Assembly (NCBI GenBank): GCA_016177405.1
Contig: JACOVG010000030.1
Location: forward strand, 1-43,935
Direction of reading: 5' to 3'
DNA length: 43,935 nt
DNA from: Candidatus Omnitrophota bacterium
Lineage (GTDB): Bacteria; Omnitrophota; Gorgyraeia; 1-14-0-20-64-10
The first letter of the stretch is position 1. The number at the start of each line of letters is the position of its first letter. A model generated the notes under the pieces. That model searched no databases and was not told the origin of the DNA. It saw nothing but the letters and a program-made list of their open reading frames with translations. Shown piece after piece: positions 25,118 to 43,583 of the stretch. The translations under genes and the position numbers were made by a program.

Positions 25118-26149
25118 TTAGGGAATGATCGCCGTTTTCACGCCGTCGGCTTGGGTCAGCATCCGGCGAAGGATTTGAGGCAGATCGTCCAGCGGGGCCT
25201 GGCGGGTGATGAGGGGTTCGGGGCGGACCACCCCTTTGGCCAGAAGGGAGAGGGATTTCCGGATGGCTTCTGGGGTGTGGTGAAAGGTGGAGAGAAGGGT
25301 CAGCTCGTCGTAGTGCATCCGCCGGGTGTCCAGCGGGACCTCGGCGCCGGCGGGGCAGCCGCCAAAAAGAAGCACGCGCCCGCCGGGCCGGACGATCCGC
25401 AGGGCCTGCGACCAGGCGGCCGGACGGCCCACCGCTTCGATCACGAGGTCGGCCCCTCTTTTTTCCGGCGTCTTTTCTTGGGCTGCCTTGACCGGATCGG
25501 AAAGCTGGTCCAGGTCGAGGGCCGCTTCCGCGCCGCAAGCCAGGGCGGCCTTCAACCGACTGTCCCCTTTACCCACCAGGACCACCTTCGCGCCGGTTCC
25601 GCGGACCAACTGGAGGAACATCAAGCCGACCGGCCCAGCCCCCAGGATGACCACGGTTTCGCCGGCGGCAGGCTTTGCCGCCTCCGCGCCCCTTACCACG
25701 CAGGCCAGCGGCTCGGTGAGGGCGGCCGCCTCAAAGGAGAGAGAAGCCGGGATCTCCAGGAGATTCTCCCGGACCAGCCGCGCGGGAAGCAGGAGATACT
25801 CGGCGTAGGCGCCGTTGACAAAAAGGAGATCCTCGCAGAGGTTCGGTTGGCCCTTCCTGCAGAAGAAGCAGGCCCCGCAGGGGGCGGAGTTGGCCCCGAC
25901 CACCCGCTGGCCGGGCTTGAAGGAGGTTACCCCTGGCCCCGCCGCTTCCACCACACCGGCGAATTCGTGGCCGAACGGGGCAGGGGGCTTGATCATGCGG
26001 GCATGGCCGCCGTTTCGGAAGACCTTGAGGTCGGTGCCGCAGGTCAGGGCCGCCTTGATCTTCAGGAGAACCTCGCCCGGGCCTGGGCGCGGGGTAGGTC
26101 TCTGCTCCAGCCGGACGTCCTCTTTGCCGTACAGGACCGCTGTTTTCAT
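25118..26149 (-). CDS. Zinc-dependent alcohol dehydrogenase (MDR family), second of pair
   Basis: This is a 343-residue medium-chain dehydrogenase with catalytic zinc ligands in LTCGTDLKVF and FGHEFAGVVEAAG, a structural-zinc cluster CGACFFCRKGQPNLC, and the Rossmann motif VILGAGPVGLMFLQL. Such enzymes interconvert alcohols and aldehydes or ketones with NAD(P)H; the substrate is unknown. Similarity to sorbitol and threonine dehydrogenases suggests a polyol or sugar-like substrate. Its ATG overlaps the stop of the first dehydrogenase (ATGA). Because it is divergent from the hopanoid operon, a role in reducing the hopanoid side chain is worth considering (inference). Confidence 0.85.
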   Translation of the reverse strand: MKTAVLYGKEDVRLEQRPTPRPGPGEVLLKIKAALTCGTDLKVFRNGGHARMIKPPAPFGHEFAGVVEAAGPGVTSFKPGQRVVGANSAPCGACFFCRKGQPNLCEDLLFVNGAYAEYLLLPARLVRENLLEIPASLSFEAAALTEPLACVVRGAEAAKPAAGETVVILGAGPVGLMFLQLVRGTGAKVVLVGKGDSRLKAALACGAEAALDLDQLSDPVKAAQEKTPEKRGADLVIEAVGRPAAWSQALRIVRPGGRVLLFGGCPAGAEVPLDTRRMHYDELTLLSTFHHTPEAIRKSLSLLAKGVVRPEPLITRQAPLDDLPQILRRMLTQADGVKTAIIP

Positions 26150-27180
26150 CGGGTGGAACCGTTTAAGCCAAACCGGATGATCACCTTCAGCGAGCTGGGT
26201 GAAGGATTCAGGGCCACGTGGATCGCCTCGTTGATCTGATCCAGGCCGAAGCGGTGGGTGATGAGCGGCTTCACCTGGATTTGGCGGGTGAAAACCAGAT
26301 CGGCCGATTTGGCCTGAAGGTCCACCGAGGCGCTGTAGCTGCCGATCAGCTCCTTCTCCAGCTTGCCGATCTGGCCCACGTCCACCGGGGCCAAGTCGCC
26401 GACGCGGGTTTGGGCAAAGAGAACGACCCTTCCGGCAGGCCGAACCGCGTCCAGGGCCGAGGGCACCGCTTGGGCGGAGGCGGCCGCCACCAGGGCGATG
26501 TCGAAATGCTCTTTGGGAAGCTGTTCGGGGGAGGTGGTTTCCCGCGCGCCGAGTGCCTTGGCCAAGGTCAGCCGCTCTTGAATGGGATCGGCCACCGAGA
26601 CATCGGCCCCCTTCAAGCGGGCCAGTTGAAGGAGGGTGAGCCCCACCGGACCGGAGCCCAGGATGAGAACCCGGCTGCCAGCTCCGATGCCTGCTTTTTC
26701 GATCCCTTTGAGGCAGGTGTTGACCGGCTCCACGAAGGAGGCCTCTTCATCCTCCACCCCTTCCGGGATCTTCACCAGCCCCTCCCGGACGATCCAATCC
26801 TTCACCTTCACGAACTCGGCAAAGCCGCCGCCCGAGGGCTCGAACCCGGCGGTGGTGCCGACCCGCTTGTACTGGGGGCACTGGGCGTAATTCTTGGCGC
26901 GGCAGAAGGGGCAGTTCCGGCAGGGGATGTGATGAAAGAAGACCGCCCGGTCACCCGGCTTCCAGCCGCGGACAGCCTGGCCCACCGCTTCCACCCGGCC
27001 GGCCACCTCGTGGCCGAAGACGAGGGGCGGGGGCAAGTCGCCGTGGACGATCTTCTTAAGGTCGGTCCCGCAGACCCCGCAGACCGCCACCTTAAGGAGA
27101 AGCTCTCCGGCTTCCAGGGGAGGAACGGGAAGCTCCTCGACCCGGACATCGTTGGCCCCTCGATAAACCGCTGCGCGCAT
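26146..27180 (-). CDS. Zinc-dependent alcohol dehydrogenase (MDR family), first of pair
   Basis: This 344-residue homologue of the following dehydrogenase has CGVCGTDLKK and FGHEVAGRVEAVG for catalytic zinc, CRNCPFCRAKNYAQC for structural zinc and VLILGSGPVGLTLLQLA for the cofactor. The pair is clearly divergent in sequence, so it is not a recent duplication. The two might oxidize and reduce related substrates or form a hetero-oligomer. ATG 27180 lies 77 bp from the oppositely oriented hpnCD start, so the two operons share a promoter region. Confidence 0.85.
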   Translation of the reverse strand: MRAAVYRGANDVRVEELPVPPLEAGELLLKVAVCGVCGTDLKKIVHGDLPPPLVFGHEVAGRVEAVGQAVRGWKPGDRAVFFHHIPCRNCPFCRAKNYAQCPQYKRVGTTAGFEPSGGGFAEFVKVKDWIVREGLVKIPEGVEDEEASFVEPVNTCLKGIEKAGIGAGSRVLILGSGPVGLTLLQLARLKGADVSVADPIQERLTLAKALGARETTSPEQLPKEHFDIALVAAASAQAVPSALDAVRPAGRVVLFAQTRVGDLAPVDVGQIGKLEKELIGSYSASVDLQAKSADLVFTRQIQVKPLITHRFGLDQINEAIHVALNPSPSSLKVIIRFGLNGSTR

Positions 27181-27257: not shown

Positions 27258-28970
27258 ATGCCTTCCCTAGAACAAGCGTACCAATATTGCCAGTGGCTGA
27301 CGCGCCGCCACTACGAAAACTTCCCGGTGGCCTCGGGGCTTCTGCCCAAGGCCCTGCGGCCGCACGTGGCGGCGGTCTACGCCTTTGCCCGCTCGGCCGA
27401 CGACTTTGCCGACGAGGAAAGGGATCCCAAAAAAGCGCTGGCGCGGCTGGCGAACTGGAGAGAAATGCTCGGCGCTCGCAATGACACCCATCCGATCTTT
27501 ATCGCCCTGGCCGACACGATCCGCCGGTTTGACCTTCCGCCGCAGCTTTTCCACGATTTGCTGACCGCTTTTGAGCGGGATGTGACGGTGAAGCGCTACG
27601 CCGCGTGGGACGATCTCCTCAACAACTACTGCCGGTATTCGGCCAACCCGGTGGGGCGGCTGGTTCTGCTTCTGTTCGGCCACAAGGAACCGCGCCTGCA
27701 CGAGCTTTCCGACTTTATCTGCACGGCGCTTCAGCTTACCAACTTCTGGCAGGACCTCTCGATGGATCTGGCCAAGGGAAGGATCTACCTGCCGCAGGAG
27801 CTTCTGCGCCGCCATGGGGTGACGGAGGAGTCCCTCTTCCAAGGCAAGCCCTCCGGAAATTTCGCGGCGGCGATGGAAGAGGCCGCCGGTTTCACCGAGG
27901 AGCTTTTCTGGAGGGGAGAGGCGCTTCCCTCTTGGGTGAGCGGCCGGCTCCGGTGGGAGCTTCGGGCGACCTGGCTCGGAGGGATGGCTGTTCTCAAGCG
28001 GACGACAAGGCTTCGGGTTAGAGGAAGCTGTAAGCGCCCGGCCTTGGGATGGAAGGACAAGCTGGCGATCGGCATGACAGCCATCTCCGTCAACGGAGGC
28101 GGCGGCTCGGCGGCTTACTGCCGCCGGGTCGCCGGAAAAAGCGGAAGCCATTTCTATCAGGCCCTGTGGCTTTTGCCGCCGGAGCGCCGGGAGGCGATGT
28201 TTGCCGTCTACAGCTTTTGCCGGGCGGTGGACGACTGCGTGGACGAAGGCAAACCGGCGGATCAAGCCCGCCGGGAGCTTGAGGGATGGAGGAGGGAAGC
28301 GGACGCCTGCTTTGAAGGAAGGCCCACCCATCCGATCACACGCGCCTTGTCTGGCGCGGTGAAGCGCTACAACATTCCCCGCCAGCTTCTATTGGATTTG
28401 ATCGTCGGAATGGAAATGGATCTTGAGAAAAAGCGGTACGCCACCTTTGAGGAGCTTCAGGCCTACTGCTACCACGCGGCCGGGGTGGTGGGTCTGATGG
28501 CGGTGCGGGTCTTCGGCTGCCGCAATCCCAAAAGCGACGAGTTCGCCATCGCGCTCGGCACGGCGTTTCAGCTGACCAACATTCTGCGGGACGCGGCCTC
28601 CGACGCCCAGCGAGGCCGGGTCTACCTCCCCGAGGAGGATCTCAAGCGCTTCGCGAACCCGGCACTCCCGGAAATGGTACCGGAGTTGCTGGCGTTTGAG
28701 TGCGAGAGGGCGCGCGGCTGGTTTGCCAAGGCCTACGCCGCGGTCACGGCCCAAGACCGCTGGGCCCTGACCCCGGCCCTGGCCATGGCCGCGGTCTACC
28801 GCCGGCTCCTGGATCGGATTGAGTCGGCCGGCCCTGCCGCGCTGGCCCAGCCCATCCGGCTTTCCACCGGTGAAAAACTCTCCCTTGCTTTGCGCGGCGC
28901 CTTCTTTTCAACCTCCAACGTCATCTCGAGTCCCGAAGGGACGAGAGATCTCTCACTTCGTTCGAGATGA
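27258..28970 (+). CDS. Fused squalene-pathway enzyme HpnC-HpnD
   Basis: Two squalene/phytoene-synthase-like enzymes lie on one 570-residue chain. Residues 5-275 match HpnC, with DDFADE (48-53) and LTNFWQDLSMDLAKGRIYLP (160-179). Residues 285-550 match HpnD, with VDDCVDE (324-330) and LTNILRDAASDAQRGRVYLP (439-458). The glycine-rich linker NGGGGSA lies near 279-285. In known hopanoid producers these are separate genes: HpnD makes presqualene diphosphate from farnesyl diphosphate, HpnC converts it to hydroxysqualene, and HpnE reduces that to squalene. Both aspartate-rich metal-binding pairs are intact in both halves. The last 17 residues are encoded by a palindromic repeat and are probably dispensable. 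It overlaps hpnE by ATGA. Confidence 0.9.
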   Translation: MPSLEQAYQYCQWLTRRHYENFPVASGLLPKALRPHVAAVYAFARSADDFADEERDPKKALARLANWREMLGARNDTHPIFIALADTIRRFDLPPQLFHDLLTAFERDVTVKRYAAWDDLLNNYCRYSANPVGRLVLLLFGHKEPRLHELSDFICTALQLTNFWQDLSMDLAKGRIYLPQELLRRHGVTEESLFQGKPSGNFAAAMEEAAGFTEELFWRGEALPSWVSGRLRWELRATWLGGMAVLKRTTRLRVRGSCKRPALGWKDKLAIGMTAISVNGGGGSAAYCRRVAGKSGSHFYQALWLLPPERREAMFAVYSFCRAVDDCVDEGKPADQARRELEGWRREADACFEGRPTHPITRALSGAVKRYNIPRQLLLDLIVGMEMDLEKKRYATFEELQAYCYHAAGVVGLMAVRVFGCRNPKSDEFAIALGTAFQLTNILRDAASDAQRGRVYLPEEDLKRFANPALPEMVPELLAFECERARGWFAKAYAAVTAQDRWALTPALAMAAVYRRLLDRIESAGPAALAQPIRLSTGEKLSLALRGAFFSTSNVISSPEGTRDLSLRSR

Positions 28971-28971
28971 C
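28920..28971. repeat. Palindromic repeat (GTCATCTCGA...TCGAGATGAC)
   Basis: Ten-bp perfect inverted ends surround an inner palindrome GAGAGATCTCTC. It encodes the C-terminus of hpnCD, and its last bases supply both the hpnCD stop and the hpnE ATG. Confidence 0.85.
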
Positions 28972-30319
28972 CCCGGCTCACGTCGTGGTGATCGGCGGGG
29001 GATTCGCGGGGTTGAGAACGGCCGTCTCGCTGGCCGACGCCGGCATCCGGGTCACGGTGCTCGAGGCCCGCGGCAGCCTTGGCGGCAGGGCCCGCTCCTT
29101 CGCCGATCCGGCCACCGGGGAGGTGGTGGACAACGGCCAGCACCTTTTTCTGGCCGGATACGAGGCGACCCTTCGATTCCTCAAGCGCTTAGGCACCCAG
29201 GACCGCCTCATCTTTCAGGACCGGCTTTCGGTGGTTTTTGTGGAGCCCGGCGGCCGGGTGAGCCGGCTGGATTGCCCGCCGCTTCCCGCGCCGTGGCACC
29301 TGGCGGCGGGGGTGGCCGGGCTTTCCTCTCTGTCGCTGGCCGACAAATGGAAATTTATGAGGGTCTTAAAAGCGGTGTCAAGGGAAGAAGATGGTCAGAC
29401 GGTGGAGGAGTGGCTCACCCGGCAGGGTCAATCGGAGGGGAGCCGGCGGATCTTTTGGGATCCTCTCACGATCGCGACCCTGAACGAGATTCCCTCCAGG
29501 GCCTCGGCGTCAGGCTTACGGGCTGTTCTGCGCGTTCTCCTGAAAGGACCCTGGCCCAAGGCCCGGCTGGGAATGCCCAAGGTGGGGCTAAGCGATCTTT
29601 ACACCGAGGCGGCCCGCCGGATCATCGAGGAAAACGGGGGAGAGGTTCGGGTGAACGCGCCGGTGGCAGGGCTCACGCTCGAGGGATCCAGGGTCAGGGC
29701 CGCGCGGCTGGCCAACGGCTCGTCCCTGGAGGCCGAATCGGTGGTGAGCGCCCTGCCGCCCCAGGCCTTAAACCGCCTTCTGCCCGATGGGGTAAGGTCT
29801 TCCGATCCGGCCTTTTCGAACTTGGACCGGTTCTCAAGCTCGCCCATCGTTTCGGTGAACCTGTGGCTGGACCGGCCAGTCACGAAAGCGCTTTTTGTGG
29901 GGCTCATCGGCACCCGATTTCAGTGGCTCTTCAACAAGGAAGCGATCTTGAAGAAAGCGGGGATCGAGGCGCGCTACGTGGCCCTCATCTTGAGCGCGGC
30001 CCAGGCCTACATGGACCAGCCCAACGATGCCCTGGCCGCGATGGCCCTGGAGGATCTCGCGGCCTGTTTTCCTCACCTCGCGGCTGTCAGGCCGATCCGA
30101 TCCCAGGTGGTGAGGGAGCGGGACGCGACCGTTTCGTTGGGGGTCGGAATGGAGCGGTTCAGGCCCAGCGCTCGCACCCGCTTGGAAAACTTCTTCTTGG
30201 CCGGCGATTGGACGGCGACCGGTTTGCCGGCCACCATCGAATCGGCCGTGCTAAGCGGGGAAGAATGCGCTAGCCAGGTCATTTCCCATCTATGTCCTGC
30301 AACCTTGAATCGGCCTTAA
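28967..30319 (+). CDS. hpnE: HpnE, hydroxysqualene FAD oxidoreductase
   Basis: HpnE is the FAD enzyme of the hopanoid squalene route. The N-terminal dinucleotide-binding motif is HVVVIGGGFAGLRTAVSLADAGIRVTVLEARGSLGGRA (residues 5-42), followed by the amine-oxidase/desaturase-like VDNGQHLFLAGY. The C-terminal FAD motif is NFFLAGDWTATGLPATIESAVLSGEECA. At 450 residues it is full length. The start ATG is the end of a palindromic repeat and overlaps the hpnCD stop, so translation is coupled. Confidence 0.9.
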   Translation: MTPAHVVVIGGGFAGLRTAVSLADAGIRVTVLEARGSLGGRARSFADPATGEVVDNGQHLFLAGYEATLRFLKRLGTQDRLIFQDRLSVVFVEPGGRVSRLDCPPLPAPWHLAAGVAGLSSLSLADKWKFMRVLKAVSREEDGQTVEEWLTRQGQSEGSRRIFWDPLTIATLNEIPSRASASGLRAVLRVLLKGPWPKARLGMPKVGLSDLYTEAARRIIEENGGEVRVNAPVAGLTLEGSRVRAARLANGSSLEAESVVSALPPQALNRLLPDGVRSSDPAFSNLDRFSSSPIVSVNLWLDRPVTKALFVGLIGTRFQWLFNKEAILKKAGIEARYVALILSAAQAYMDQPNDALAAMALEDLAACFPHLAAVRPIRSQVVRERDATVSLGVGMERFRPSARTRLENFFLAGDWTATGLPATIESAVLSGEECASQVISHLCPATLNRP

Positions 30320-30351: not shown

Positions 30352-31170
30352 ATGAATCTCACCGCTTACCTTAAAAAACGCAAAATTCTGGTCAACTCGG
30401 CGCTGAAGAAATGCCTGCCCGGCGCCCGGGAATTCCCAGGTCAAATCCACCAGGCAATGCGCTACAGCGTCCTGGGGGAGGGTAAAAGGATCCGGCCGAT
30501 CCTGGCCCTGGCCGCCTGCGAGGCGGCGGGGGGAAAGGCCCGGCAAGCCCTGCCGGCCGCCTGCGCCCTGGAGCTGATCCACGCCTACTCCCTGGTTCAC
30601 GACGATCTGCCCGCCATGGACGACGACGACTTCCGTCGGGGAAAACCCTCGTGCCACAAGCGGTTCGGTGAGGCGATCGGCATCCTGGCCGGGGACGCCC
30701 TCTTGACCCACAGCTTCCTTCTCCTTAGCCAGGGGCCTCTGGCGCCCTCGGCGCGCGTTCAAATCATCCGGGAGGTCAGCCAGGCCATCGGCACGCAAGG
30801 GATGATCGGCGGCCAGGTGGCGGACGTGATCTCCGAAAACGGCGCCCGCGCCGCCCAAATCGAGAAGATCCACGCGATGAAAACCGGCGCCCTGATCGCC
30901 GCCTCCGTGCGGGTGGGGGCGCTTTGCGCCGGCGCCTCGGCCAAGCGCTTCAAGGCCCTTTCCGGTTACGGCTCCCGGGTGGGCCTGGTTTTTCAATTGG
31001 TGGATGACCTCCTGGATTCCGACGGAGCGGTGAAGCTTTACGGCCGGCAGGCGGTTCGTCGAAAGGCCGAGCGCCTGACGGCGGAGGCGATCCGATCCCT
31101 TCGGCCGCTGGGCGCCGGGGGCGGCCCTTTAAGCGAGATCGCCCGCTTCATCTTAACGAGGAGCTCCTAG
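30352..31170 (+). CDS. Short-chain polyprenyl diphosphate synthase (farnesyl-type)
   Basis: This enzyme condenses isopentenyl diphosphate with allylic diphosphates, most likely to farnesyl diphosphate for the squalene enzymes next to it. The first aspartate-rich motif is DDLPAMDDDDFRRG (84-97) and the second is VFQLVDDLLD (213-222). After the second motif the usual GK-containing loop is missing: DDLLDSDGAVKLYGRQ runs straight into the last helix, making it 272 residues against about 295 usual. It could still be active because both metal sites are complete, but the product tail-binding end may differ. Confidence 0.85.
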   Translation: MNLTAYLKKRKILVNSALKKCLPGAREFPGQIHQAMRYSVLGEGKRIRPILALAACEAAGGKARQALPAACALELIHAYSLVHDDLPAMDDDDFRRGKPSCHKRFGEAIGILAGDALLTHSFLLLSQGPLAPSARVQIIREVSQAIGTQGMIGGQVADVISENGARAAQIEKIHAMKTGALIAASVRVGALCAGASAKRFKALSGYGSRVGLVFQLVDDLLDSDGAVKLYGRQAVRRKAERLTAEAIRSLRPLGAGGGPLSEIARFILTRSS

Positions 31171-31176
31171 GAAGCG

Positions 31177-33087
31177 ATGCCCAAGCTGATTGACGGGATC
31201 AACGACCCCAAGGAGTTGAGGGCCCTGCCGCAGGCCAGCCTGCCGCGGGTGGCCCAGGAGATCCGCGAGCTCATCATCGACAAGGTTTCGGCCACCGGCG
31301 GCCACCTGGCCGGCCCGTTGGGGGCGGTGGATCTGGTGGTCGCGCTTCACTACGTGTTTCAGACGCCGGAGGATCAGCTCGTCTGGGACGTCGGCTATCA
31401 GGCCTACGCCCACAAGATCCTGACAGGACGCCGCGACCGCTTTGGAACCCTGCGCCAATGGAAGGGCATCTCCGGTTTTCCCCACCGGGAGGAATCGCCC
31501 TATGATCTTTTCACCATCGGCCACGGCGGCACCTCCATCTCCACGGCGCTGGGGCTGGTCCGGGCCCGGGACCATCAGGGCAAGCGCAACAAGGTGGTGG
31601 CGGTCATCGGGGACGGCTCCCTGCCCGAGGGGATGGCGCTGGAGGGCTTGAACCACGCCGGCCACCTGAAGTCCGATCTCCTGGTGATCTTGAACGACAA
31701 CAAGATGGCCATTGCCCCGGCGATCGGCGCCCTGACCCACTACTTCACCCGGATCATCACCGACCCGCTGTACAACCGCTTCCGCCGGGAGGTGGAGAGC
31801 GTGATGTGCCGGGTGCCCCGTTTCGGCTTCAGGATCCTGCGGGCGGGCAAACGGCTGGAGGAGTCGCTCAAGAATCTTCTGGTTCCGGGCATCATCTTTG
31901 AGGAGCTGGGCTTCCGGTACTTCGGGCCGGTGGACGGCCACAATCTGGATGAGATGATCTCCACGCTGAACCACCTGAAGGGCCTGCCGGGACCCAAGTT
32001 CCTCCATGTGAGAACCGTCAAGGGGAAGGGCTACCCGCCGGCCGAGCAGAATCAGTGGAAGTACCACGGGGTGACCCCCTTTGATCCGGCCACCGGCGAG
32101 TTCCTGAAGAAGCCGCAGGCGGAGGGCTTCACCCAGCGGTTCGGCCAGGCGATGATCGGCTTGGGGCGGAAAGACCCCCGGGTGGTCGCCATCACGGCGG
32201 CCATGCCGGATGGGACAGGATTGGTGGAGTTCTCCAAGGCGCTGCCCGGCCAGTTTTACGACGTGGCCATGTGCGAACAGCACGCCGTGGCCTTCGCCGC
32301 GGGGCTGGCCCGCGGCGGGATGCGCCCCGTGGTGGCGATCTATTCCACCTTCCTTCAGCGCGGCTACGACCAGGTGATCCACGACGTCTGCATTCAAAAT
32401 CTGCCGGTTGTCTTCGCGATGGACCGGGCGGGCCTGGTCGGGGACGACGGGATCACCCACCACGGCCTCTTTGATCTGGCGTATCTCGGGGCCTTGCCCC
32501 GGATGACGCTCGCGGCCCCCAAGGATCTGGACGAACTGGAAGCGATGCTGGCCTTTGCCCTGCGCCACAACGGCCCGATCGGCCTCCGGTACCCCAGGGG
32601 CGGGGTCCTCCGGTTTCATCCCGAGTGGGCGATGGATCTTCCCAAGGAGGCGGCCCCCATCGAGCTGGGCAAGGCGGAGATTCTCTCCCAGGGCAGCGAT
32701 CTGGCCCTGGTGGCGCTGGGCTCGATGGTTTATCCGGCCCTGGAGGCGGCCAAGCTTCTGGAAGGGGAAGGGATCTCCACCACGGTGGTCAATGCCCGGT
32801 GGGCCAAGCCGATGGACATGGCCCTGTTTGCCGGCCTGGTGAAGGAGCATCGCGCCCTCCTTGTCGTCGAGGAGGGGGTGGTGAAGGGGGGTTTCGGGGC
32901 GAGTCTCCTGGCGGCGGTTGAAGAGCACCGGTCCAATGGCTTTGCCGTCAAGGTGATGGGGATCCCCGACGCTTTCTTTGAGCATGGAAAACGGGAGATC
33001 CTGCTTGCGCAGGCGGGATTGACCCCGTCGGCGATGGCGGCCTCGGCCAAGGAGCTTCTTTCCAGGAGCCCGGTCTATGCTCGCTAG
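31177..33087 (+). CDS. dxs: 1-deoxy-D-xylulose-5-phosphate synthase
   Basis: DXS joins pyruvate and glyceraldehyde 3-phosphate with thiamine diphosphate, the first step of the MEP isoprenoid pathway. The 636-residue protein contains FTIGHGGTSISTALG, the thiamine motif VAVIGDGSLPEGMALEGLNHAG, YFGPVDGHNLDEM, the transketolase-like YDVAMCEQHAVAFAAGLA and DRAGLVGDDGITHHG. The first motif usually reads GHSSTSIS; GHGG is a variant. Its place here would raise precursor supply whenever hopanoid genes are expressed. It overlaps shc by 11 bases. Confidence 0.95.
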   Translation: MPKLIDGINDPKELRALPQASLPRVAQEIRELIIDKVSATGGHLAGPLGAVDLVVALHYVFQTPEDQLVWDVGYQAYAHKILTGRRDRFGTLRQWKGISGFPHREESPYDLFTIGHGGTSISTALGLVRARDHQGKRNKVVAVIGDGSLPEGMALEGLNHAGHLKSDLLVILNDNKMAIAPAIGALTHYFTRIITDPLYNRFRREVESVMCRVPRFGFRILRAGKRLEESLKNLLVPGIIFEELGFRYFGPVDGHNLDEMISTLNHLKGLPGPKFLHVRTVKGKGYPPAEQNQWKYHGVTPFDPATGEFLKKPQAEGFTQRFGQAMIGLGRKDPRVVAITAAMPDGTGLVEFSKALPGQFYDVAMCEQHAVAFAAGLARGGMRPVVAIYSTFLQRGYDQVIHDVCIQNLPVVFAMDRAGLVGDDGITHHGLFDLAYLGALPRMTLAAPKDLDELEAMLAFALRHNGPIGLRYPRGGVLRFHPEWAMDLPKEAAPIELGKAEILSQGSDLALVALGSMVYPALEAAKLLEGEGISTTVVNARWAKPMDMALFAGLVKEHRALLVVEEGVVKGGFGASLLAAVEEHRSNGFAVKVMGIPDAFFEHGKREILLAQAGLTPSAMAASAKELLSRSPVYAR

Positions 33088-35011
33088 CCCGGCCGCCGAT
33101 TTGCGCCTGACCGACCCCACCGCCACGGTCCCGCCGGCTCTGGCCCGCGCCTGCGAACAGGCCCAGCGGTACCTCCTTTCCAAGCAGGACCCCGAGGGAT
33201 TCTGGGTGGCCGAGCTGGAGGCCGACACCACGCTGGAGTCCGACACGATCAAGCTGATGCATCTCTTGGGAAGGGTGGATCAAGACAAACAGGAGCGCCT
33301 CATCCGGACAATCCTCAAGAATCAACTGCCGGACGGCGGCTGGCCCATCTACGCGCGAGGCCCGGCCGAGCTCAACGCGTCGGTCAAGGCCTACGCGGCC
33401 CTCAAGCTCTCCGGCCGCCCGGCCGACGACCCGGTCCTCGCGGCGGCCCGTAGAACGATTCTGCGCCTGGGGGGTCTGGCGCGGATCAACAGCTTTGAGA
33501 AGGTGTACCTGGCGCTGTTCGGCTGTTATCCCTGGGAAGAGGTCCCGGCCCTCCCGCCGGAGCTTGTCCTTCTTCCGAATTGGTTTTACTTTAACCTGTA
33601 CGAGATCGCCTATTGGTCCCGCACGATTCTCGTTCCTCTGGCCGTGGTCTATGCCACCCGGCCGATGGCGCCGCAGGCGGCCTTGAACCTCGATGAGCTC
33701 TGGACGGACCCCAAGAGCCGGAGGGCCCGGATCACGAACCTCCAAAAAGGGGGAGCCCTCTGGCGGACCTTCTTTCTTTCGGCCGACCGGCTCTTGAAGG
33801 CCTATGAGCGTTCGCCCTTCAAGCCCTTGAGGCGCCTGGCCCTGCGGGAGGCCGACCGGTGGATCACCGACCGGCTGGTTGAAACCGACGGGCTGGGGGC
33901 CATCTTTCCGGCGATGTTGAACGCCGTCTTCGCCCTCAAGGGTTTGGGCTACCAGGATGGGGATCCCCTTTTCGAGAAGCAGATCGAGGAGCTGGCCCGG
34001 TTGGAGCTGGCCGACGGCGATGCCCTGAAGGTTCAGCCCTGTTTCCCTCCGATCTGGGACACGGCCTTGGCCATGTACGCCCTGGGAAAATCCGGCCAGC
34101 GCTCCCCGGAGCAGGAGGGGCTCACCCGGGCCGGCCAATGGCTTCGGTCCAAGGAGATCAGGCAGTGGGGAGACTGGAGGATCAAAAACCCCGAGGGCCG
34201 CCCCGGCGGATGGGCCTTTGAGTTTGACAACCCTTACTACCCGGACGTGGACGACACGGCTCAAGTGCTCCTGGGGCTGGCGCACAGCCGGGCGGCCGCG
34301 GTCTCCGACGGGGTTTTCCGGCGGGGGATGGATTGGGTCTTGAGCATGCAAAACCGGGACGGTGGATTCAGCTCGTTCGATAAAAACAACAACCGCCAGG
34401 CCCTGACCCACTTTCCCTTTGCCGATCACAACGCCATGCTGGATCCCTCCTGCCCGGACATCACCGGGAGGATCCTGGAGCTGATGAGCCTGGCGGGATT
34501 CCGGCGCGGGCATCCGGCCCTGGAAGCCGCGGTGGGCTATCTTCACCGGACCCAGGAGACGGATGGAACCTGGTTTGGGCGCTGGGGAGTGGGCTTTCAT
34601 TATGGCACGTGGCTGGCTTTGCGGGGACTGCGCTCGGTGGGCGAGCCGATGGAGAGCCTGCGCTATCAGAGGGTGGGGCGGTGGTTTGCCACCCGGCAGA
34701 ATCCGGATGGGGGCTGGGGCGAAAGCTGTCGCGCCTACGATGATCCTTCGGTGAAGGGTCAGGGGGAGTCCACCTCCTCCCAAACGGCGTGGGCCCTGAT
34801 GGCCTTGATGAGTCTGGGTCAGGTGGCCGAGCCGGCCTTCCAACGGGGGATCCGCTGGCTGCTCACCCGGCAGGGTCCGGAAGGGGACTGGCCGGAGGGC
34901 CCCTTCACCGGCACCGGATTTCCGCGGGTTTTCTATCTCAAGTACCACTTCTACCGGATCTACTTTCCCTTGCTGGCCTTGACCGAGGCCCGGGAATTCT
35001 TTAAGGAATAG
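33077..35011 (+). CDS. shc: Squalene-hopene cyclase
   Basis: This 644-residue enzyme cyclizes squalene to hopene (diploptene) and diplopterol at the membrane. The proton-donating DVDD is at residues 390-393 (YYPDVDDTAQ). QW repeats are spread along the chain (QDPEGFW, QLPDGGW, QNRDGGFSSF, QETDGTW, QNPDGGWGES, QGPEGDW), with WGDWRIKNPEGRPGGWAFEFDN before the active site and GTGFPRVFYLKYHFYRIYFP at the end, all typical of SHC/HpnF. Nothing looks missing. Confidence 0.96.
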   Translation: MLASPAADLRLTDPTATVPPALARACEQAQRYLLSKQDPEGFWVAELEADTTLESDTIKLMHLLGRVDQDKQERLIRTILKNQLPDGGWPIYARGPAELNASVKAYAALKLSGRPADDPVLAAARRTILRLGGLARINSFEKVYLALFGCYPWEEVPALPPELVLLPNWFYFNLYEIAYWSRTILVPLAVVYATRPMAPQAALNLDELWTDPKSRRARITNLQKGGALWRTFFLSADRLLKAYERSPFKPLRRLALREADRWITDRLVETDGLGAIFPAMLNAVFALKGLGYQDGDPLFEKQIEELARLELADGDALKVQPCFPPIWDTALAMYALGKSGQRSPEQEGLTRAGQWLRSKEIRQWGDWRIKNPEGRPGGWAFEFDNPYYPDVDDTAQVLLGLAHSRAAAVSDGVFRRGMDWVLSMQNRDGGFSSFDKNNNRQALTHFPFADHNAMLDPSCPDITGRILELMSLAGFRRGHPALEAAVGYLHRTQETDGTWFGRWGVGFHYGTWLALRGLRSVGEPMESLRYQRVGRWFATRQNPDGGWGESCRAYDDPSVKGQGESTSSQTAWALMALMSLGQVAEPAFQRGIRWLLTRQGPEGDWPEGPFTGTGFPRVFYLKYHFYRIYFPLLALTEAREFFKE

Positions 35012-35020
35012 GAGAGCGCA

Positions 35021-36064
35021 ATGGCGGTTTCCATGGGGCAGGGCTTGGCGGTGGCCCGCTACATCCTGGGCCAGAAGCTTAAAGGGGTGAAGCGTTTTCC
35101 GCTCGTTCTGATGCTGGAGCCCCTGTTCCGGTGCAATTTGGAGTGCGCCGGCTGCGGCAAGATCCAGTACCCGGAGGAGATTCTAAAAAAGAGGCTTTCC
35201 GCCCAGGAGTGCGAGGAGGCGGCCCTGGAGTGCGGGGCGCCGGTGGTTTCAATCGCCGGGGGCGAGCCCCTGGTTCATCCCGAGATGCCCGAGATCGCCC
35301 GGAGGCTCGTGGCCAGGCGGAAGTTCGTTTACCTGTGCACCAACGCCATCCTCCTGTCCAAGAGGATCAAGGATTACACCCCCTCGCCCTATTTCCGGTT
35401 CAGCATCCACCTGGACGGTCTGGAGCAGACGCACGACCAGGCGGTCTGCCGCCAGGGGGTCTTTAAGCTCGCGGTGGAGGCGATCCGCCAGGCCAAGGGG
35501 GCCGGCTTCCAGGTTTCCACCAACACCACGATCTTCCTGGGGGCCGATCCCAAGGAGTACCGGAGGATGTTCGACTTCCTGACCGATCTGGGGGTGGACG
35601 GGATGATGATCTCGCCGGGCTACCCCTACGAGAAGGCTCCGGATCAGGAGCATTTCCTCCGCCGCGGCGAGACCCAGGCCCTTTTCCGAAAAATCCTGGA
35701 TCAGGCCGACCCGCGCTGGCGCTTCAACCATTCCTCCTTCTTCCTCGAATTCCTTCAGGGTTACCGGGATTACCAGTGCACCGCTTGGGGCAACCCCACC
35801 CGGAACATCTTCGGCTGGCAGAAACCCTGCTACCTCATGTCGGACGGCTACGCCAAGACCTTCCGGGAGCTTGTTGACGACACCCCCTGGGAGCGGTACG
35901 GCACCGGACGGGATCCCCGGTGCGCCGACTGCATGGTCCACTGCGGCTACGAGCCCTCGGCGGTGGCCGATGCCATGGGTTCCTTCAGGAACATGCGCAA
36001 GGCCTTCGCGAACGACTGGAAAGGGAAAGCGGCTGAAAGAGAGCCTGAAGAAGCACGGGTTTAA
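35021..36064 (+). CDS. hpnH: HpnH, radical SAM adenosylhopane synthase
   Basis: HpnH adds the 5'-deoxyadenosyl group of SAM to hopene, forming adenosylhopane, the first C35 hopanoid. The iron-sulfur motif is CNLECAGC (Cys38, 42, 45), followed by the HpnH signature [15 protein letters not shown] and [13 protein letters not shown] cysteine-rich C-terminal part ([15 protein letters not shown]) is also typical. At 347 residues it is full length. GGAGAG precedes ATG 35021. Its end overlaps the decarboxylase alpha gene. Confidence 0.95.
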
Positions 36065-36515
36065 TTTCTTCACCGGGGTGGCCGACTCCTTGATCGGCTC
36101 CCTGCTGGAGGAGCTTTCCCGCGAGCCGGAGGGGTACCGCCCGGCCGTGCGCGAAGACATCGCCGTGGGGCTGGCCTCCGGGGCGTACCTGGCCGGCCGG
36201 TGGCCGTGCGTCCTGATGCAGAATTCCGGTTTGGGGTATTGCCTGAACGCCCTGATGAGCCTGAACCTGATCTACCGGATTCCGCTCCTTCTCGTCGTCG
36301 GGCACCGCGGCTACCAAGGCAAGGACGCGCCCGAGCACCTTGTGATCGGCCGGCACGGCGAGGCCATTCTGAAGAAGATCGGGATACCGGTTTTCTCGCC
36401 GGGCGCCAGGGACCTTCCGAGGGCTCTGGGAGCCGCCGACTCGGCGATGCGCCGGAAGAGGATCCCGGCGGCCCTTTTCATCCGGCCCGGGGTGCTGGGA
36501 GGATCGGCGGGGTGA
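36033..36515 (+). CDS. Phosphonopyruvate decarboxylase-like, alpha (PYR-domain) subunit
   Basis: This is the N-terminal half of a thiamine-diphosphate decarboxylase. [17 protein letters not shown] closely follows the phosphonopyruvate decarboxylase signature (FFTGVPDSLLK), the catalytic Glu lies in [17 protein letters not shown], and [19 protein letters not shown] and [12 protein letters not shown] complete the PYR domain. Sulfopyruvate decarboxylase ComD is related and is an alternative. No standard start fits: the in-frame ATG at 35970 would add a meaningless shadow of hpnH, while a CTG at 36033 has GGGA six bases upstream. I favour CTG or a coupled restart. The end overlaps the beta gene as GTGA. 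Confidence 0.75.
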
Positions 36516-37072
36516 CGGCGCGGGAAGCGGTTGCCGTTGTGGCGTCGAGGCTCTCGGACGAGCTGGTCGTCTGCACCACCGGGTACACCTGCAGGGACCT
36601 GCAGGTGGTCCGCGACCGGCCCGGGAATTTCTACATGATCGGTTCGATGGGCCTGGCCGCCTCCCTGGGGCTTGGCCTCGCGATCCACCGGCCCCAAAGA
36701 AGGGTGGTGGTGCTGGATGGGGACGGCTCGGTCCTGATGGGTCTGGGCAACCTTCCCATGGCGGGGGCCTGGGGGCCGGAGAACTTTCTCCATGTGGTGC
36801 TGGACAACGGGGTTTACGCCTCCACCGGAGGCCAGCCCACCCCGGGCGGTCAAGTTTCTCTGGAGCAGGCGGCGAGGGTTTTTGGATACGCGGCGGCGGT
36901 AAAGGCGGCCACGCGGGAAGAGCTCCTCGCGCGATGGGACGAGCTTGAAAAGAAGAAGGGGCCTCGCTTTCTTCTGGTGAAGTGCAGCCCCACGCCCGGC
37001 GCGCCCTCCCCGCGGGTTCGGCTTTCTCCCGATAAAATCACGAAACGATTCAGACAGGCGGTGAAAAAGTGA
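36512..37072 (+). CDS. Phosphonopyruvate decarboxylase-like, beta (TPP-domain) subunit
   Basis: This is the C-terminal half of the same enzyme, 186 residues, with the thiamine-diphosphate motif VLDGDGSVLMGLGNLPMAG and the following HVVLDNGVYASTGGQPTPGG. STGGQPT matches phosphonopyruvate decarboxylase, whereas ComE usually has STGNQPT. Phosphonopyruvate decarboxylases are normally one chain of about 380 residues; here it is split, as in ComD/ComE. The predicted reaction gives phosphonoacetaldehyde, which draws the unfavourable PEP mutase reaction forward. The start GTG overlaps the alpha stop, and the last bases overlap the transaminase start, so all three are coupled. Confidence 0.78.
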   Translation: MTAREAVAVVASRLSDELVVCTTGYTCRDLQVVRDRPGNFYMIGSMGLAASLGLGLAIHRPQRRVVVLDGDGSVLMGLGNLPMAGAWGPENFLHVVLDNGVYASTGGQPTPGGQVSLEQAARVFGYAAAVKAATREELLARWDELEKKKGPRFLLVKCSPTPGAPSPRVRLSPDKITKRFRQAVKK

Positions 37073-38367
37073 AACCAAAGACGAAGATGCTCCGGCTTAA
37101 AAAAGCGCAAGCCCACCGAGGGCGGCAAGCCAGACTCCGGCGAAGGAGGCTGCGGCGAAAGAGATTTCAGAGAGTGGTCCTCGCCAGAAGGATGGAGAAG
37201 CCTCAAGCCAAGCTTCCGGCCGGCGACGCGGCGCCGGCGCCGGTGGAAAGAGCGGCGCGCCCGAAGCGCCAGGTGCTTCTGTGCCCCGGCCCCGTCATGA
37301 CGAGCCTTCACGTGAAGGCGGCCTTGGCCCGCCCGGACGCGTGCCACCGGGAACCGGAGTTCTCCGAGCTTCTGTCCATGGTTCGCGCCAAGCTCCTGCA
37401 CGCGCTGGGCCTGGGCGGGCGCTACACGGCGGCGGTGGTCAACGGCTCTGGAACGGCCGCCCTGGAGTCCGCCGTCCTGGCCGCCTGCGAGCCGCCCCGC
37501 AAGCTCTTGGTGATCAACAACGGCGTCTACGGCTCCCGGATCGCCCGAATCGCGAAGATTCACGGGATTCCCCTCGTGGAGATCCGCTCCCCCATCACGG
37601 AGCGGCCGGATCTGAACCGGGTTTCGGCCGCCCTCAAGAGGGCCCGGGATGTGGGCACGGTGGCCATGGTCCACCACGAAACCTCGACCGGCATCTTGAA
37701 CCCGGTGGAGGAGGTGGGAGCCCTGGCCGAGAAGTACCGCCGGCGTTTTCTGGTGGACGCCATCTCTTCCCTGGGGGCGGAGAAGCTGGATCTGGCGAAG
37801 GCCCATGTGGATTTCTGCGTGGGCTCCGCGGGCAAGGCCCTCCACGGCGCGCCGGGCCTGGCCTTTGTTTTGGCGGCCCAGGAGGAATCGGCCCGGGTGC
37901 TGAAGCTCAAGCCCCGGAGCTTGTATCTGGATCTGGGAACGATGCTCCAGGCCCAGGATGCCGGCGACCCTCCCTTCACGCCGGCCGTTCCATTGATCGC
38001 CGCCTTCCATGCTGCCCTGGATGAGCTGATCCGAGAGGGGGTCAAGGGGCGGACGATCAAATACCGCCAGCGGGCCTTGTTCCTGCGTTCGGGCTTCAAG
38101 AAGCTGGGGCTGGCCTTCGTGCTGGACGAGAAGATCATGTCCAATTCCCTGACCAGCCTCTGGGTTCCCAAGTGGCTCACCTACCAGCAGCTTCACGACC
38201 GTTTGAAGCGCGCCGGCTACGTGATCTACGCGGGGCAGAGCGAATTGAAGGGGAAGATCTTCCGGGTGGCTCACATGGGCGGGCTCCTGCAGAGCGACCT
38301 GGATGGGTTCTTGAAATCCCTGAAGGTGGTGACCGCGCCGCCGGTGGCGGCGGCCAACACCAAATAG
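37069..38367 (+). CDS. 2-Aminoethylphosphonate transaminase-like enzyme
   Basis: This is a class V pyridoxal-phosphate aminotransferase. VLLCPGPVMTSLHVKAAL...CHREPEFSELL, VNGSGTAALESAV, VHHETSTGILNPVEEVGALA, FLVDAISSLGAEKLDL and the Schiff-base Lys256 in GSAGKALHGAPG match PhnW, which interconverts 2-aminoethylphosphonate and phosphonoacetaldehyde with alanine and pyruvate. Placed after the decarboxylase subunits, it would make 2-aminoethylphosphonate. Residues 1-60 are an odd, very basic extension (QARLRRRRLRRKRFQR). If translation starts at ATG 37192 instead, most of it disappears, but GTG 37069 overlaps the upstream stop and is coupled. An alternative role is amination of the hopanoid side chain. 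Confidence 0.8.
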   Translation: MKPKTKMLRLKKAQAHRGRQARLRRRRLRRKRFQRVVLARRMEKPQAKLPAGDAAPAPVERAARPKRQVLLCPGPVMTSLHVKAALARPDACHREPEFSELLSMVRAKLLHALGLGGRYTAAVVNGSGTAALESAVLAACEPPRKLLVINNGVYGSRIARIAKIHGIPLVEIRSPITERPDLNRVSAALKRARDVGTVAMVHHETSTGILNPVEEVGALAEKYRRRFLVDAISSLGAEKLDLAKAHVDFCVGSAGKALHGAPGLAFVLAAQEESARVLKLKPRSLYLDLGTMLQAQDAGDPPFTPAVPLIAAFHAALDELIREGVKGRTIKYRQRALFLRSGFKKLGLAFVLDEKIMSNSLTSLWVPKWLTYQQLHDRLKRAGYVIYAGQSELKGKIFRVAHMGGLLQSDLDGFLKSLKVVTAPPVAAANTK

Positions 38368-40333: not shown

Positions 40334-40904
40334 GATTTTGTTGGCGGCGGCCGTACGGCCTGAACTTGCCTCCTTTCCACGAAAACTCCATGCCAAGGTG
40401 GACCTCCTCTTTACCGGGATGGGCAAGCAGGCCCACCGGGCGGCGGCGCGGGCGCTTGCCGCCGAGAGTTACCGCCTGGTGGTGAGCAGCGGCTTCGCGG
40501 CGGGGGCGCGGACCGGCCTGAAAACGGGCGATCTGGTGGCGGCCGAGGAGGTGGTGGACGCTGTCTCGGGAGAGGTCCTGGTTTCTCGGCGCCCGGCCGT
40601 GAACGGCTCCGTGGCCCTGGGGAGGTTTGTGACGGTTCCCCGGGTCATCGCGGGCCCAAGGGGCAAGGAGCAGGCGGGCCGCCGCTGGCAGGCGGCGGCG
40701 ATCGAGATGGAAACCTTCCATGTCGCCCGCGCCGCCAGCCAAGCGGGCGTTCCCTGGGTGGGCCTGCGGGTGATTCTCGATCCGATGGAGGTTTCTTTGT
40801 TAAGGGGCGTCTTGGGTTTTCTTCCGGCGGTCCGTCTGGCGAGCCGCTCGCTCGCCGACGGCTTAGGGAAATTCATTGAGGGAGGCATCGATGGATCTGG
40901 ATAG
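40320..40904 (+). CDS. hpnG: HpnG, adenosylhopane nucleoside phosphorylase
   Basis: HpnG removes adenine from adenosylhopane, giving ribosylhopane. The phosphorylase fold is seen in LVVSSGFAAGARTGLKTGDLV and in the base/ribose site AIEMETFHVARAASQAGVPWVGLRVI. The ORF track starts too early at 40251, within hpnA; ATG 40320 gives 194 residues, near the usual length. It overlaps hpnA by 14 bases and the next gene by 14, with a GGGAGG ribosome site for that gene in its tail. Confidence 0.88.
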   Translation: MATAKILLAAAVRPELASFPRKLHAKVDLLFTGMGKQAHRAAARALAAESYRLVVSSGFAAGARTGLKTGDLVAAEEVVDAVSGEVLVSRRPAVNGSVALGRFVTVPRVIAGPRGKEQAGRRWQAAAIEMETFHVARAASQAGVPWVGLRVILDPMEVSLLRGVLGFLPAVRLASRSLADGLGKFIEGGIDGSG

Positions 40905-41895
40905 GGTGACGGCTTTGATCGAATCGGAATACGGCTTCTTTCAGAGGGAGCGTGCCCGCTGGAGCTTGACGGCCGGCCCCCAGGACATGGAGCTGGTTGC
41001 CCACGCCCTTCGGGTGATCCTTCACATGGGCAAGGCCGAGGAATCTTTGCCGGAGTACCTGGCGCTGGCCGCGGCGCAGCATCCGGACGGGGGCTGGGGC
41101 CGGGAGTCCGCCGAGAAGGAATCGGCCGCCTGGGTTTCCGCCTTCATGGGGCTGATGCTCATCCGCGGCAACGCGGTCCTCAAGCATCCGGTGATCGAGC
41201 AGTCGGTTTTGAAGGCGGTCCGCTATTTTCTTGATTCCCAGAAGCCGGATGGCCGGTGGAAGGACGCCGAGTGGGGCGATCTGGACACGACCTCGCACCC
41301 GGTGAGCTTCTTCAACGTGGTGCTTGCCTTAGGAACCGAGGCGATGAAGGCCCCGGTCCGCCCGGCCTGGCGCAAGGGTCTGCGCTTCATCCTCCAGGGT
41401 CAGTCGGAGGACGGCGGCTGGTACGACCCCGTCTTTCATCCCTCCGGTGTGGAAACGACGGCCCATCTGGTGCAGGACGCGGTGATCGCCTCCCTGTTCC
41501 TGCCGGAGGGCCTGCCGGTCCGGCCCGCCTGCGAGAAGGGGCTTCGCTGGATCCTCAACCACCAGGAGGCCGAGGGCTCCTGGGATGAGAAGAACGTGGA
41601 CCACACCATGGACTGCACCCGGTCGGCCCTGCTCATCTCCCGCTCCTTGAGGCACGAGGTCTTGGCCCGGCCCACGGTGGAGAAGGCGATGGACTGGATC
41701 GCGGCCAGCAAGAACGAGAACGGCTGGCCCGATTTCCCCGGATTGGAAACCAGCCTGGAGCGAACCTGCGACGGCTTGGACACCCTGCTCAAATACCAGG
41801 CGTGGTGCCTGAAGGATCCGCTCGCGACGGCGCGCCGCTGGGGGTATGTGACCGGGGAGACTGCCTTCTTGCCGGCGGTGGAAGCCAAGCTGTAA
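40891..41895 (+). CDS. Half-size terpene-cyclase-like QW-repeat protein
   Basis: The 334-residue protein is built of alpha-barrel repeats related to squalene-hopene cyclase and prenyltransferases: QHPDGGWGRES, QKPDGRWKD, QSEDGGWYDP, QEAEGSWDEK and NENGWPDF. It covers only about one barrel domain, half of SHC. A GDLDTTSHP motif resembles the acidic DxDD/DxDT sites but lacks the full DxDD, so squalene cyclization is doubtful. It could act on a different terpenoid or serve as a binding partner. ATG 40891 with GGGAGG five bases before is preferred to TTG 40876. Confidence 0.75.
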   Translation: MDLDRVTALIESEYGFFQRERARWSLTAGPQDMELVAHALRVILHMGKAEESLPEYLALAAAQHPDGGWGRESAEKESAAWVSAFMGLMLIRGNAVLKHPVIEQSVLKAVRYFLDSQKPDGRWKDAEWGDLDTTSHPVSFFNVVLALGTEAMKAPVRPAWRKGLRFILQGQSEDGGWYDPVFHPSGVETTAHLVQDAVIASLFLPEGLPVRPACEKGLRWILNHQEAEGSWDEKNVDHTMDCTRSALLISRSLRHEVLARPTVEKAMDWIAASKNENGWPDFPGLETSLERTCDGLDTLLKYQAWCLKDPLATARRWGYVTGETAFLPAVEAKL

Positions 41896-42228
41896 ATGGA
41901 CCGTCCGGGCGTTGCCAAGCCGGAGGAGATCCCGCCGGGCGCCTCGAAGCTGGTGACGGTTGACGGTAAAGAGGTGGCCCTCTTCAACGTGGAGGGATGT
42001 CTCTACGCCCTGGGTAACCGCTGTCCACACCGCGGCGGCCCGCTGGTCCGCGGCCGCCTTGAGAGATTGCCCGATTCCGGGGCTTGGGCGGTGCGCTGTC
42101 CCATTCATGGCTGGCTCTTCGACCTGGCCAGCGGCAAGAACGCCACAGGCCCCCATGCCGGCACACCCTCTTATCCTGTGATTTGCCGGGACGGGGAGGT
42201 TTTTGTGGAGCCGCCCCCTCCGGGATGA
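41896..42228 (+). CDS. Small Rieske-type ferredoxin
   Basis: This 110-residue protein is a single Rieske [2Fe-2S] domain with ligands Cys43-x-His45 (CPHRGGPL) and Cys68-x2-His71 (CPIHGW). It has no oxygenase catalytic domain, transmembrane anchor or signal peptide, so it is a soluble electron carrier like NirD-type or ring-hydroxylating ferredoxins. In this operon it might feed electrons to HpnH or to an unidentified side-chain reductase (inference). The ATG begins right after the upstream stop, and the TGA overlaps the next ATG. Confidence 0.9.
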   Translation: MDRPGVAKPEEIPPGASKLVTVDGKEVALFNVEGCLYALGNRCPHRGGPLVRGRLERLPDSGAWAVRCPIHGWLFDLASGKNATGPHAGTPSYPVICRDGEVFVEPPPPG

Positions 42229-43583
42229 CCGCCATCATCCTGGCGGCCGGGGTGGGCAAGCGGATGGGCCCCGGCGCCGGCCCCAAGTGTCTGCTTTCGC
42301 TCGGCGGCAAGACCCTTCTTCAGAGAACCTTCGAATCTCTGCGCTCGGCGGGGGTGAACCGTCTGGTGCTGGTGACGGGCTACCGGAAAGAGGAGGTGGC
42401 GGCCGAGGCCCGGCGGCGCGCCGGTTCCACCGCGCTCACCCTTCTCGTGAACCCCCGCTGCACCGAGGGGGCCATCCTCTCCCTCTGGACCGCGCGCGAA
42501 GCGCTCGCGGACGACGACGTTCTTATCCTCGACGCCGATGTTCTTTGCCCGCCGGCGGCCTTCGAGCGGCTGATCCGTTCGGCCCATCCCAACTGCCTCC
42601 TGGTGGACGGAACCGCCGCCGACACGGGAGAGGAGCAGATGGTTTTGGGCAAGGAGGGCAGGGCCCTGTTCATCACCAAACGTCCCTCGCCGGAGCTCAA
42701 ATCCCGCTTGACCTCCTTGGGCGAGTCGGTGGGCTTCCTCAAGCTCGGCCCCGAAGGGGCCCGGTTCTTGAGATCCTTCTTGGAAAAGAAGGTGGAGACA
42801 GGCCAGGTGAACCTGGAGCATGAACAGGTTTACCCGGCCCTCTTTGAGAGGGTGCCGGTCGGCTTTGAGCGGATGGACGGCCTGGCCTGGACCGAGATCG
42901 ACACGCCGGAGGAATTGAGCAGGGCCCAGCAGGAGATCCTCCCCTCTTGGTCCGGCCCGGGCGAAGAGTGCGTCAACCGGCGGTTGGCCAAGCTGTTTCT
43001 GCCGGCCATCCTGCCTTTGCCGCTTTCCCCGAACGCCTGGACCTTCTTGTCGCTGGTCAGCGGCCTCACGTCGGTGGCGTGGATGGCGCGGGGGAACGGG
43101 GCCTGGGCGGCCTGCTTCTTTCAGCTTTTTTACCTGATCGACTTCTGGGATGGAGAGGTGGCCCGGACCAAGGGGTTAAGCTCCAAATGGGGCGGATGGT
43201 TCGACGTCACCGTGGACGCCCTCGTTCATACCCTGATGCCGCCGGCGCTGGCGCTGGGCCTTTGGCGCGGCGGCGCGCCGGACTGGGTTTGGGTGCTGGG
43301 GCTTCTCGCCGCTTTCGGGATCCTTTTCGATTTCTTGGTGACGATGCGGGCGAAGGCCAGGGGCTTCGGGCCGGCGGTTCATGGAGATTCTTCCGGCCGC
43401 TTGGCCTCGGGAGAAACAGCCCTTCGGCGTTTTGTCAGGGTGAATGGGACTGGCGAGAATTTTTCGTGGCTCGTGGCGGCGGTGCTGGCCTTGGGGCTCG
43501 AGCTGCCGTTTCTGGCGGCGATGGCCGCCGGCACGCAGTTCTACTGGATCTTGTTTCTTTGGCGGGAGCGCCGCCGCCTTTAA
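42225..43583 (+). CDS. Nucleotidyltransferase-CDP-alcohol phosphotransferase fusion
   Basis: Residues 1-235 form a sugar-phosphate-type nucleotidyltransferase (IILAAGVGKRMGPGAGPKCLLSLGGKTLLQ, then LILDADVLCP). Residues 250-452 form a membrane CDP-alcohol phosphatidyltransferase with the complete motif DFWDGEVARTKGLSSKW-GGWFDVTVD (D306, D309, G310, A313, R314, G323, D327, D331). The architecture recalls the inositol-phosphate cytidylyltransferase/DIPP synthase of thermophiles. Beside a 2-aminoethylphosphonate pathway it would be expected to make CMP-AEP and move the AEP group to a lipid alcohol (inference). Myo-inositol phosphate is the main alternative substrate. It is the last gene of the hopanoid operon. 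Confidence 0.82.
   Translation: MTAIILAAGVGKRMGPGAGPKCLLSLGGKTLLQRTFESLRSAGVNRLVLVTGYRKEEVAAEARRRAGSTALTLLVNPRCTEGAILSLWTAREALADDDVLILDADVLCPPAAFERLIRSAHPNCLLVDGTAADTGEEQMVLGKEGRALFITKRPSPELKSRLTSLGESVGFLKLGPEGARFLRSFLEKKVETGQVNLEHEQVYPALFERVPVGFERMDGLAWTEIDTPEELSRAQQEILPSWSGPGEECVNRRLAKLFLPAILPLPLSPNAWTFLSLVSGLTSVAWMARGNGAWAACFFQLFYLIDFWDGEVARTKGLSSKWGGWFDVTVDALVHTLMPPALALGLWRGGAPDWVWVLGLLAAFGILFDFLVTMRAKARGFGPAVHGDSSGRLASGETALRRFVRVNGTGENFSWLVAAVLALGLELPFLAAMAAGTQFYWILFLWRERRRL

Follow-up and report, generated by a model that had tools for sequence, protein, structure and literature searches.

A predicted HpnC–HpnD fusion heading a hopanoid operon in a Candidatus Omnitrophota genome

HpnC, HpnD and their known fusions

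The first step in the HpnCDE pathway to squalene is the conversion of two molecules of farnesyl diphosphate (FPP) into presqualene diphosphate by HpnD, which is followed by the formation of hydroxysqualene by HpnC and of squalene by HpnE (PMC5462960). In Zymomonas mobilis and Rhodopseudomonas palustris, HpnC and HpnD are two separate proteins according to the work of Pan et al. 2015, as it is cited in PMC5462960. A fusion of hpnC and hpnD is found in most subdivision-2 (SD2) genomes of the Acidobacteria (Damsté et al. 2017, PMC5462960). It is also reported from Actinopolyspora and Blastococcus saxobsidens (Actinobacteria) and from Rhodospirillum centenum (Alphaproteobacteria), to which the SD2 fusion is closest (PMC5462960). 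A search for further HpnC–HpnD fusions, suggested by the first-pass annotation of the present locus, added to these published cases Microvirga ossetica, which carries a 552-amino acid fusion (WP_162299269.1) on the finished plasmid NZ_CP016619. Matches spanning both halves in Azospirillum, Cupriavidus, Comamonadaceae and Palleronia are adjacent separate genes and not fusions.

The window analyzed here, a stretch of 43,935 nucleotides from a Candidatus Omnitrophota genome, contains a gene of the same kind. It resembles the SD2 gene in being one gene of about twice the usual size that starts with HpnC and belongs to a hopanoid gene cluster; as far as the published description of the latter goes, the two differ in their affinities, the nearest relatives of the window gene being split genes of the same order (PMC5462960). 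The Microvirga fusion shares the HpnC–HpnD order and is also followed by an HpnE-like FAD oxidoreductase, but is only about 35–40% identical per half, has a linker around TPSSSDSR and adjoins carotenoid genes, and in the tree its halves group with those of Azospirillum and Palleronia. With the separate proteins of Z. mobilis and R. palustris, the window gene has in common the domain families, the motifs and the gene order hpnC-hpnD-hpnE (Pan et al. 2015, as cited in PMC5462960). The description of the two enzymes as normally separate thus holds for the relatives, all of which are split, but not in general, as fused hpnCD has been published (PMC5462960) and is present in M. ossetica. This kind of fusion has been known since 2017, and the window case adds a lineage rather than a surprise.

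The fused gene and its neighbors

The gene is a single frame from an ATG at 27258 to a stop codon ending at 28970, and the 1.70-Mb genome (35 contigs) contains no second copy of it. Its parts are as follows:

27258..28970, + strand: fused hpnC–hpnD gene, one open reading frame of 570 amino acids
27258..28091, + strand: HpnC domain, predicted to form hydroxysqualene, aa 1-278
27399..27416, + strand: first aspartate motif of HpnC, DDFADE, aa 48-53 (D48, D49 and D52 invariant in the alignment)
27741..27767, + strand: second aspartate motif of HpnC, NFWQDLSMD, aa 162-170 (N162, D166 and D170 invariant in the alignment)
28092..28115, + strand: linker NGGGGSAA, aa 279-286, delimited by comparison with where HpnC ends and HpnD begins in relatives
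28116..28967, + strand: HpnD domain, predicted presqualene diphosphate synthase, aa 287-570
28230..28247, + strand: first aspartate motif of HpnD, DDCVDE, aa 325-330 (from the translation)
28578..28604, + strand: second aspartate motif of HpnD, NILRDAASD, aa 441-449 (from the translation)

Each half matches its own family model. The NCBIfam models for HpnC (TIGR03464) and HpnD (TIGR03465) fit aa 15-275 and aa 292-549, respectively. Scored alone, the N-terminal half (aa 1-277) reaches 298.8 bits with the HpnC model, passing the cutoff of 250.45, whereas it misses the HpnD cutoff of 278.6 with 166 bits. Conversely, the C-terminal half passes the HpnD cutoff with 294.6 bits and misses the HpnC cutoff with 167 bits. 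The best match of the HpnC half among solved structures is the HpnC structure 4hd1. Furthermore, a tree built from 29 sequences splits HpnC from HpnD with 100/100 support, and each half of the fusion lies inside its own clade. The separate clades and the scores against the respective cutoffs therefore show that the halves are two different enzymes and not a duplication, and the assignment of the N-terminal half to HpnC in the first-pass annotation is borne out. The same annotation had read HpnC and HpnD as one polypeptide with a glycine-rich linker and all four aspartate-rich motifs intact; this agrees with the uninterrupted frame, which starts with HpnC as in a fused HpnCD, with the two motifs in each half and with the position of NGGGGSAA, which follows the end of HpnC homology and precedes YC, the first residues conserved in HpnD.

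At its 3′ end, the predicted hpnCD frame slightly overshoots HpnD proper, the last ~20 residues (STSNVISSPEGTRDLSLRSR) extending past the HpnD ends of relatives. Most of these residues are encoded by a palindrome (28919-28971) that spans the codons of the final ~17 residues as well as the hpnE start codon. The corresponding RNA hairpin has a folding energy of −25.9 kcal/mol (z −3.3), and no second full copy of the palindrome was found in 391 kb of the genome.

From its gene content, hpnCD is read as the first gene of a hopanoid operon. The start of hpnE overlaps the end of hpnCD, and the two genes are adjacent as in an HpnCDE squalene pathway. The genes that follow are:

28967..30319, + strand: hpnE, hydroxysqualene dehydroxylase (TIGR03467, 440.4 bits, cutoff 283.05)
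30352..31170, + strand: farnesyl diphosphate synthase, substrate supply (NF045485, 287 bits, cutoff 275)
31177..33087, + strand: dxs, 1-deoxyxylulose-5-phosphate synthase (TIGR00204, 775 bits, cutoff 466)
33077..35011, + strand: shc, squalene-hopene cyclase (TIGR01507, 671.7 bits, cutoff 431)
35021..36064, + strand: hpnH, adenosylhopene transferase (TIGR03470, 528.7 bits, cutoff 225)

Two Zn-dependent alcohol-dehydrogenase-like genes (25118-27180, − strand) are divergent from hpnCD; in SD1 and SD3 of the Acidobacteria, hpnC is preceded by a gene for a Zn-binding alcohol dehydrogenase of ~350 aa (PMC5462960). Phosphonate-type genes are found within the hopanoid cluster at 36200-38367 and at 42084-43583. 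The set includes a phosphonopyruvate/sulfopyruvate decarboxylase-like TPP enzyme, a 2-aminoethylphosphonate transaminase-like enzyme (316.8 bits, under the cutoff of 360.8) and a nucleotidyltransferase–CDP-alcohol transferase fusion, and a PEP mutase domain is encoded elsewhere in the genome in a 610-aa frame (C16:7127-7855). These genes may serve to equip a lipid, perhaps a hopanoid, with a phosphonate head group. A 339-aa protein (40876-41895) encoded toward the end of the cluster shows weak similarity (49.6 bits) to squalene-hopene cyclase, in the C-terminal part of that enzyme.

Origin of the fusion and reading of the junction

Both genes are present in nine more genomes belonging to the same family or order, in each of which hpnC and hpnD are separate, adjacent frames. 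Across 384 sampled genomes of the phylum, no other HpnC–HpnD fusion was found; four SQS_PSY frames of 539-572 aa from four genomes of another class (L123-L126) resemble fusions at first sight but combine a phytoene-synthase-like domain with a C-terminal membrane domain and are not HpnCD. The split HpnC and HpnD of the two closest genomes, which belong to the same order, are 64% and 61% (G010) and 60% and 55% (G009) identical to the window halves, and each half groups with its G009 and G010 counterparts in a supported clade of the tree. The simplest history is therefore a fusion after divergence from these genomes. As the nearest relatives are split, the window fusion is probably of separate origin from the hpnCD fusions known elsewhere. 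The hpnC and hpnD genes of G009 are in the same reading frame and separated by a lone TAA (VVAG*MSYC), which puts them one step away from fusion; those of G010 overlap and differ in frame. The fusion would have originated, presumably in a single event, from a lost boundary between adjacent, nearly overlapping genes in the window lineage. As a whole, the explanation by a genuine fusion that heads a hopanoid operon, lost its boundary in this lineage and is of independent origin appears very likely.

The frame contains one further potential start codon that is relevant to the reading of the junction:

28074..28077, + strand: in-frame ATG in the tail of HpnC that forms an ATGA with a TGA of another frame

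This ATG precedes the first conserved residues of HpnD by 14 codons and has no other in-frame ATG near it; a free HpnD could be translated from it in addition to a real fused protein. However, the closest purine-rich stretch (GGAAGGA) ends ~16 bases upstream, which is more than a typical ribosome site allows, and the Met encoded by this ATG aligns with a Met inside the HpnC tail of G010, rendering a separate HpnD improbable.

The second alternative is an artefact in which a single spurious base just upstream of 28074 has joined two ordinary overlapping genes, with hpnC ending in the ATGA and hpnD starting at ATG 28074. Overlapping gene pairs usually take the form ATGA, two overlapping open reading frames result from 25 of the 69 single-base deletions across the junction, and all relatives from the family and order are split; the species is represented here by one assembly. 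Such an event would leave an HpnC tail of 9 residues past the RPxx motif, as compared to 15-27 residues in 11 split relatives. In addition, HpnC homology runs on beyond ATG 28074, where DKLAIGMTAISV is aligned with DKLMIAMRAFRG of G010. The in-frame continuation of the window HpnC, RPALGWKDKLAIGMTAISV, aligns with RPALTTADKLMIAMRAFRG of G010 and is followed by NGGGGSAA and then by YC of HpnD. The HpnC tail is therefore of normal length before the linker.

The effect of errors was examined in silico by making every possible one-base change from RPAL to YC, whether substitution, insertion or deletion. The frame is split by 5 of 207 substitutions, 5 of 276 insertions and 28 of 69 deletions, most of which use the ATGA at 28074, a genuine argument for the artefact. 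Every one of these changes leaves a tail of 0-9 residues past RPxx, and none gives a tail of at least 14. Given the tails of 15-27 residues in relatives, these in silico changes indirectly favor the fused frame. Moreover, a simple coding-frame model, applied to 391 kb of stretches from the 1.70-Mb genome, flags 13 frameshift-like sites, or at most about 1 per 30 kb, a count taken as an upper bound on indel errors, as it may include long overlaps and pseudogenes. At this rate, an indel error would fall within the ~70 bases of the junction with a probability well below 1%. Codon usage has no power to separate fusion from overlap here, because the halves share one frame.

Just upstream of the junction, aa 249-258 of HpnC (about 27999-28035, ~TTRLRVRGSC(K)) form an odd stretch with poor codon usage, where close relatives have a YDVF-x-RP-like stretch before RP. 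The neighboring frames contain ASG and EE, and it is a guess that compensating indels occurred, with ASG and EE as leftovers of the usual sequence; such local indels might also be taken in favor of the artefact. Altogether, a single sequencing error is an unlikely source of the fusion and the merging of an ordinary overlapping pair by a spurious base is decidedly improbable, and the fused frame, as read in the one assembly of the species, is very likely genuine. The ATGA at 28074 is possibly the fossil of an overlapping start and stop, or is due to chance.

The remaining alternative, in which the halves are duplicates of one enzyme such as phytoene or dehydrosqualene synthase, is suggested by their common SQS_PSY family and their 37% identity over 179 aa, but is contradicted by the clades and cutoffs described above as well as by the CrtB phytoene synthase cutoffs (480-550 bits), which the whole protein, at ≤265 bits, is far from reaching, and can be dismissed.

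As a separate observation, frameshift-like changes of frame are found inside the window at 11579, 21465 and 36021, possibly reflecting pseudogenes, long overlaps or errors.

Predicted activity and meaning of the fusion

The genuine fusion is presumably translated as a single protein with both predicted enzymatic activities. The HpnD half would join two molecules of FPP to presqualene diphosphate, which the HpnC half would convert into hydroxysqualene, and the neighboring HpnE and Shc would then lead via squalene to hopene. HpnC, which acts second, is indeed N-terminal, so that the domain order is the reverse of the reaction order, as had been pointed out. However, no special meaning attaches to this reversal: the order is the usual hpnC-hpnD operon order, as expected when adjacent genes merge, is the same in Microvirga and carries no message on the order of reactions.

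The short, glycine-rich linker makes it probable that each catalytic domain is mobile and independent of the other. Channelling of presqualene diphosphate between the halves is possible. That the window encodes, among split kin, an independently evolved fusion that is also a bifunctional FPP-to-hydroxysqualene synthase passing presqualene diphosphate directly between its active sites is rather doubtful.

The window fusion leaves the understanding of the pathway unchanged and is a modest addition, in that a likely independent hpnCD fusion is added from a lineage of small uncultured genomes. A single polypeptide would be handy for an assay of the conversion of FPP to hydroxysqualene. The repeated fusion of hpnC and hpnD hints that joining both steps is useful or at least harmless.
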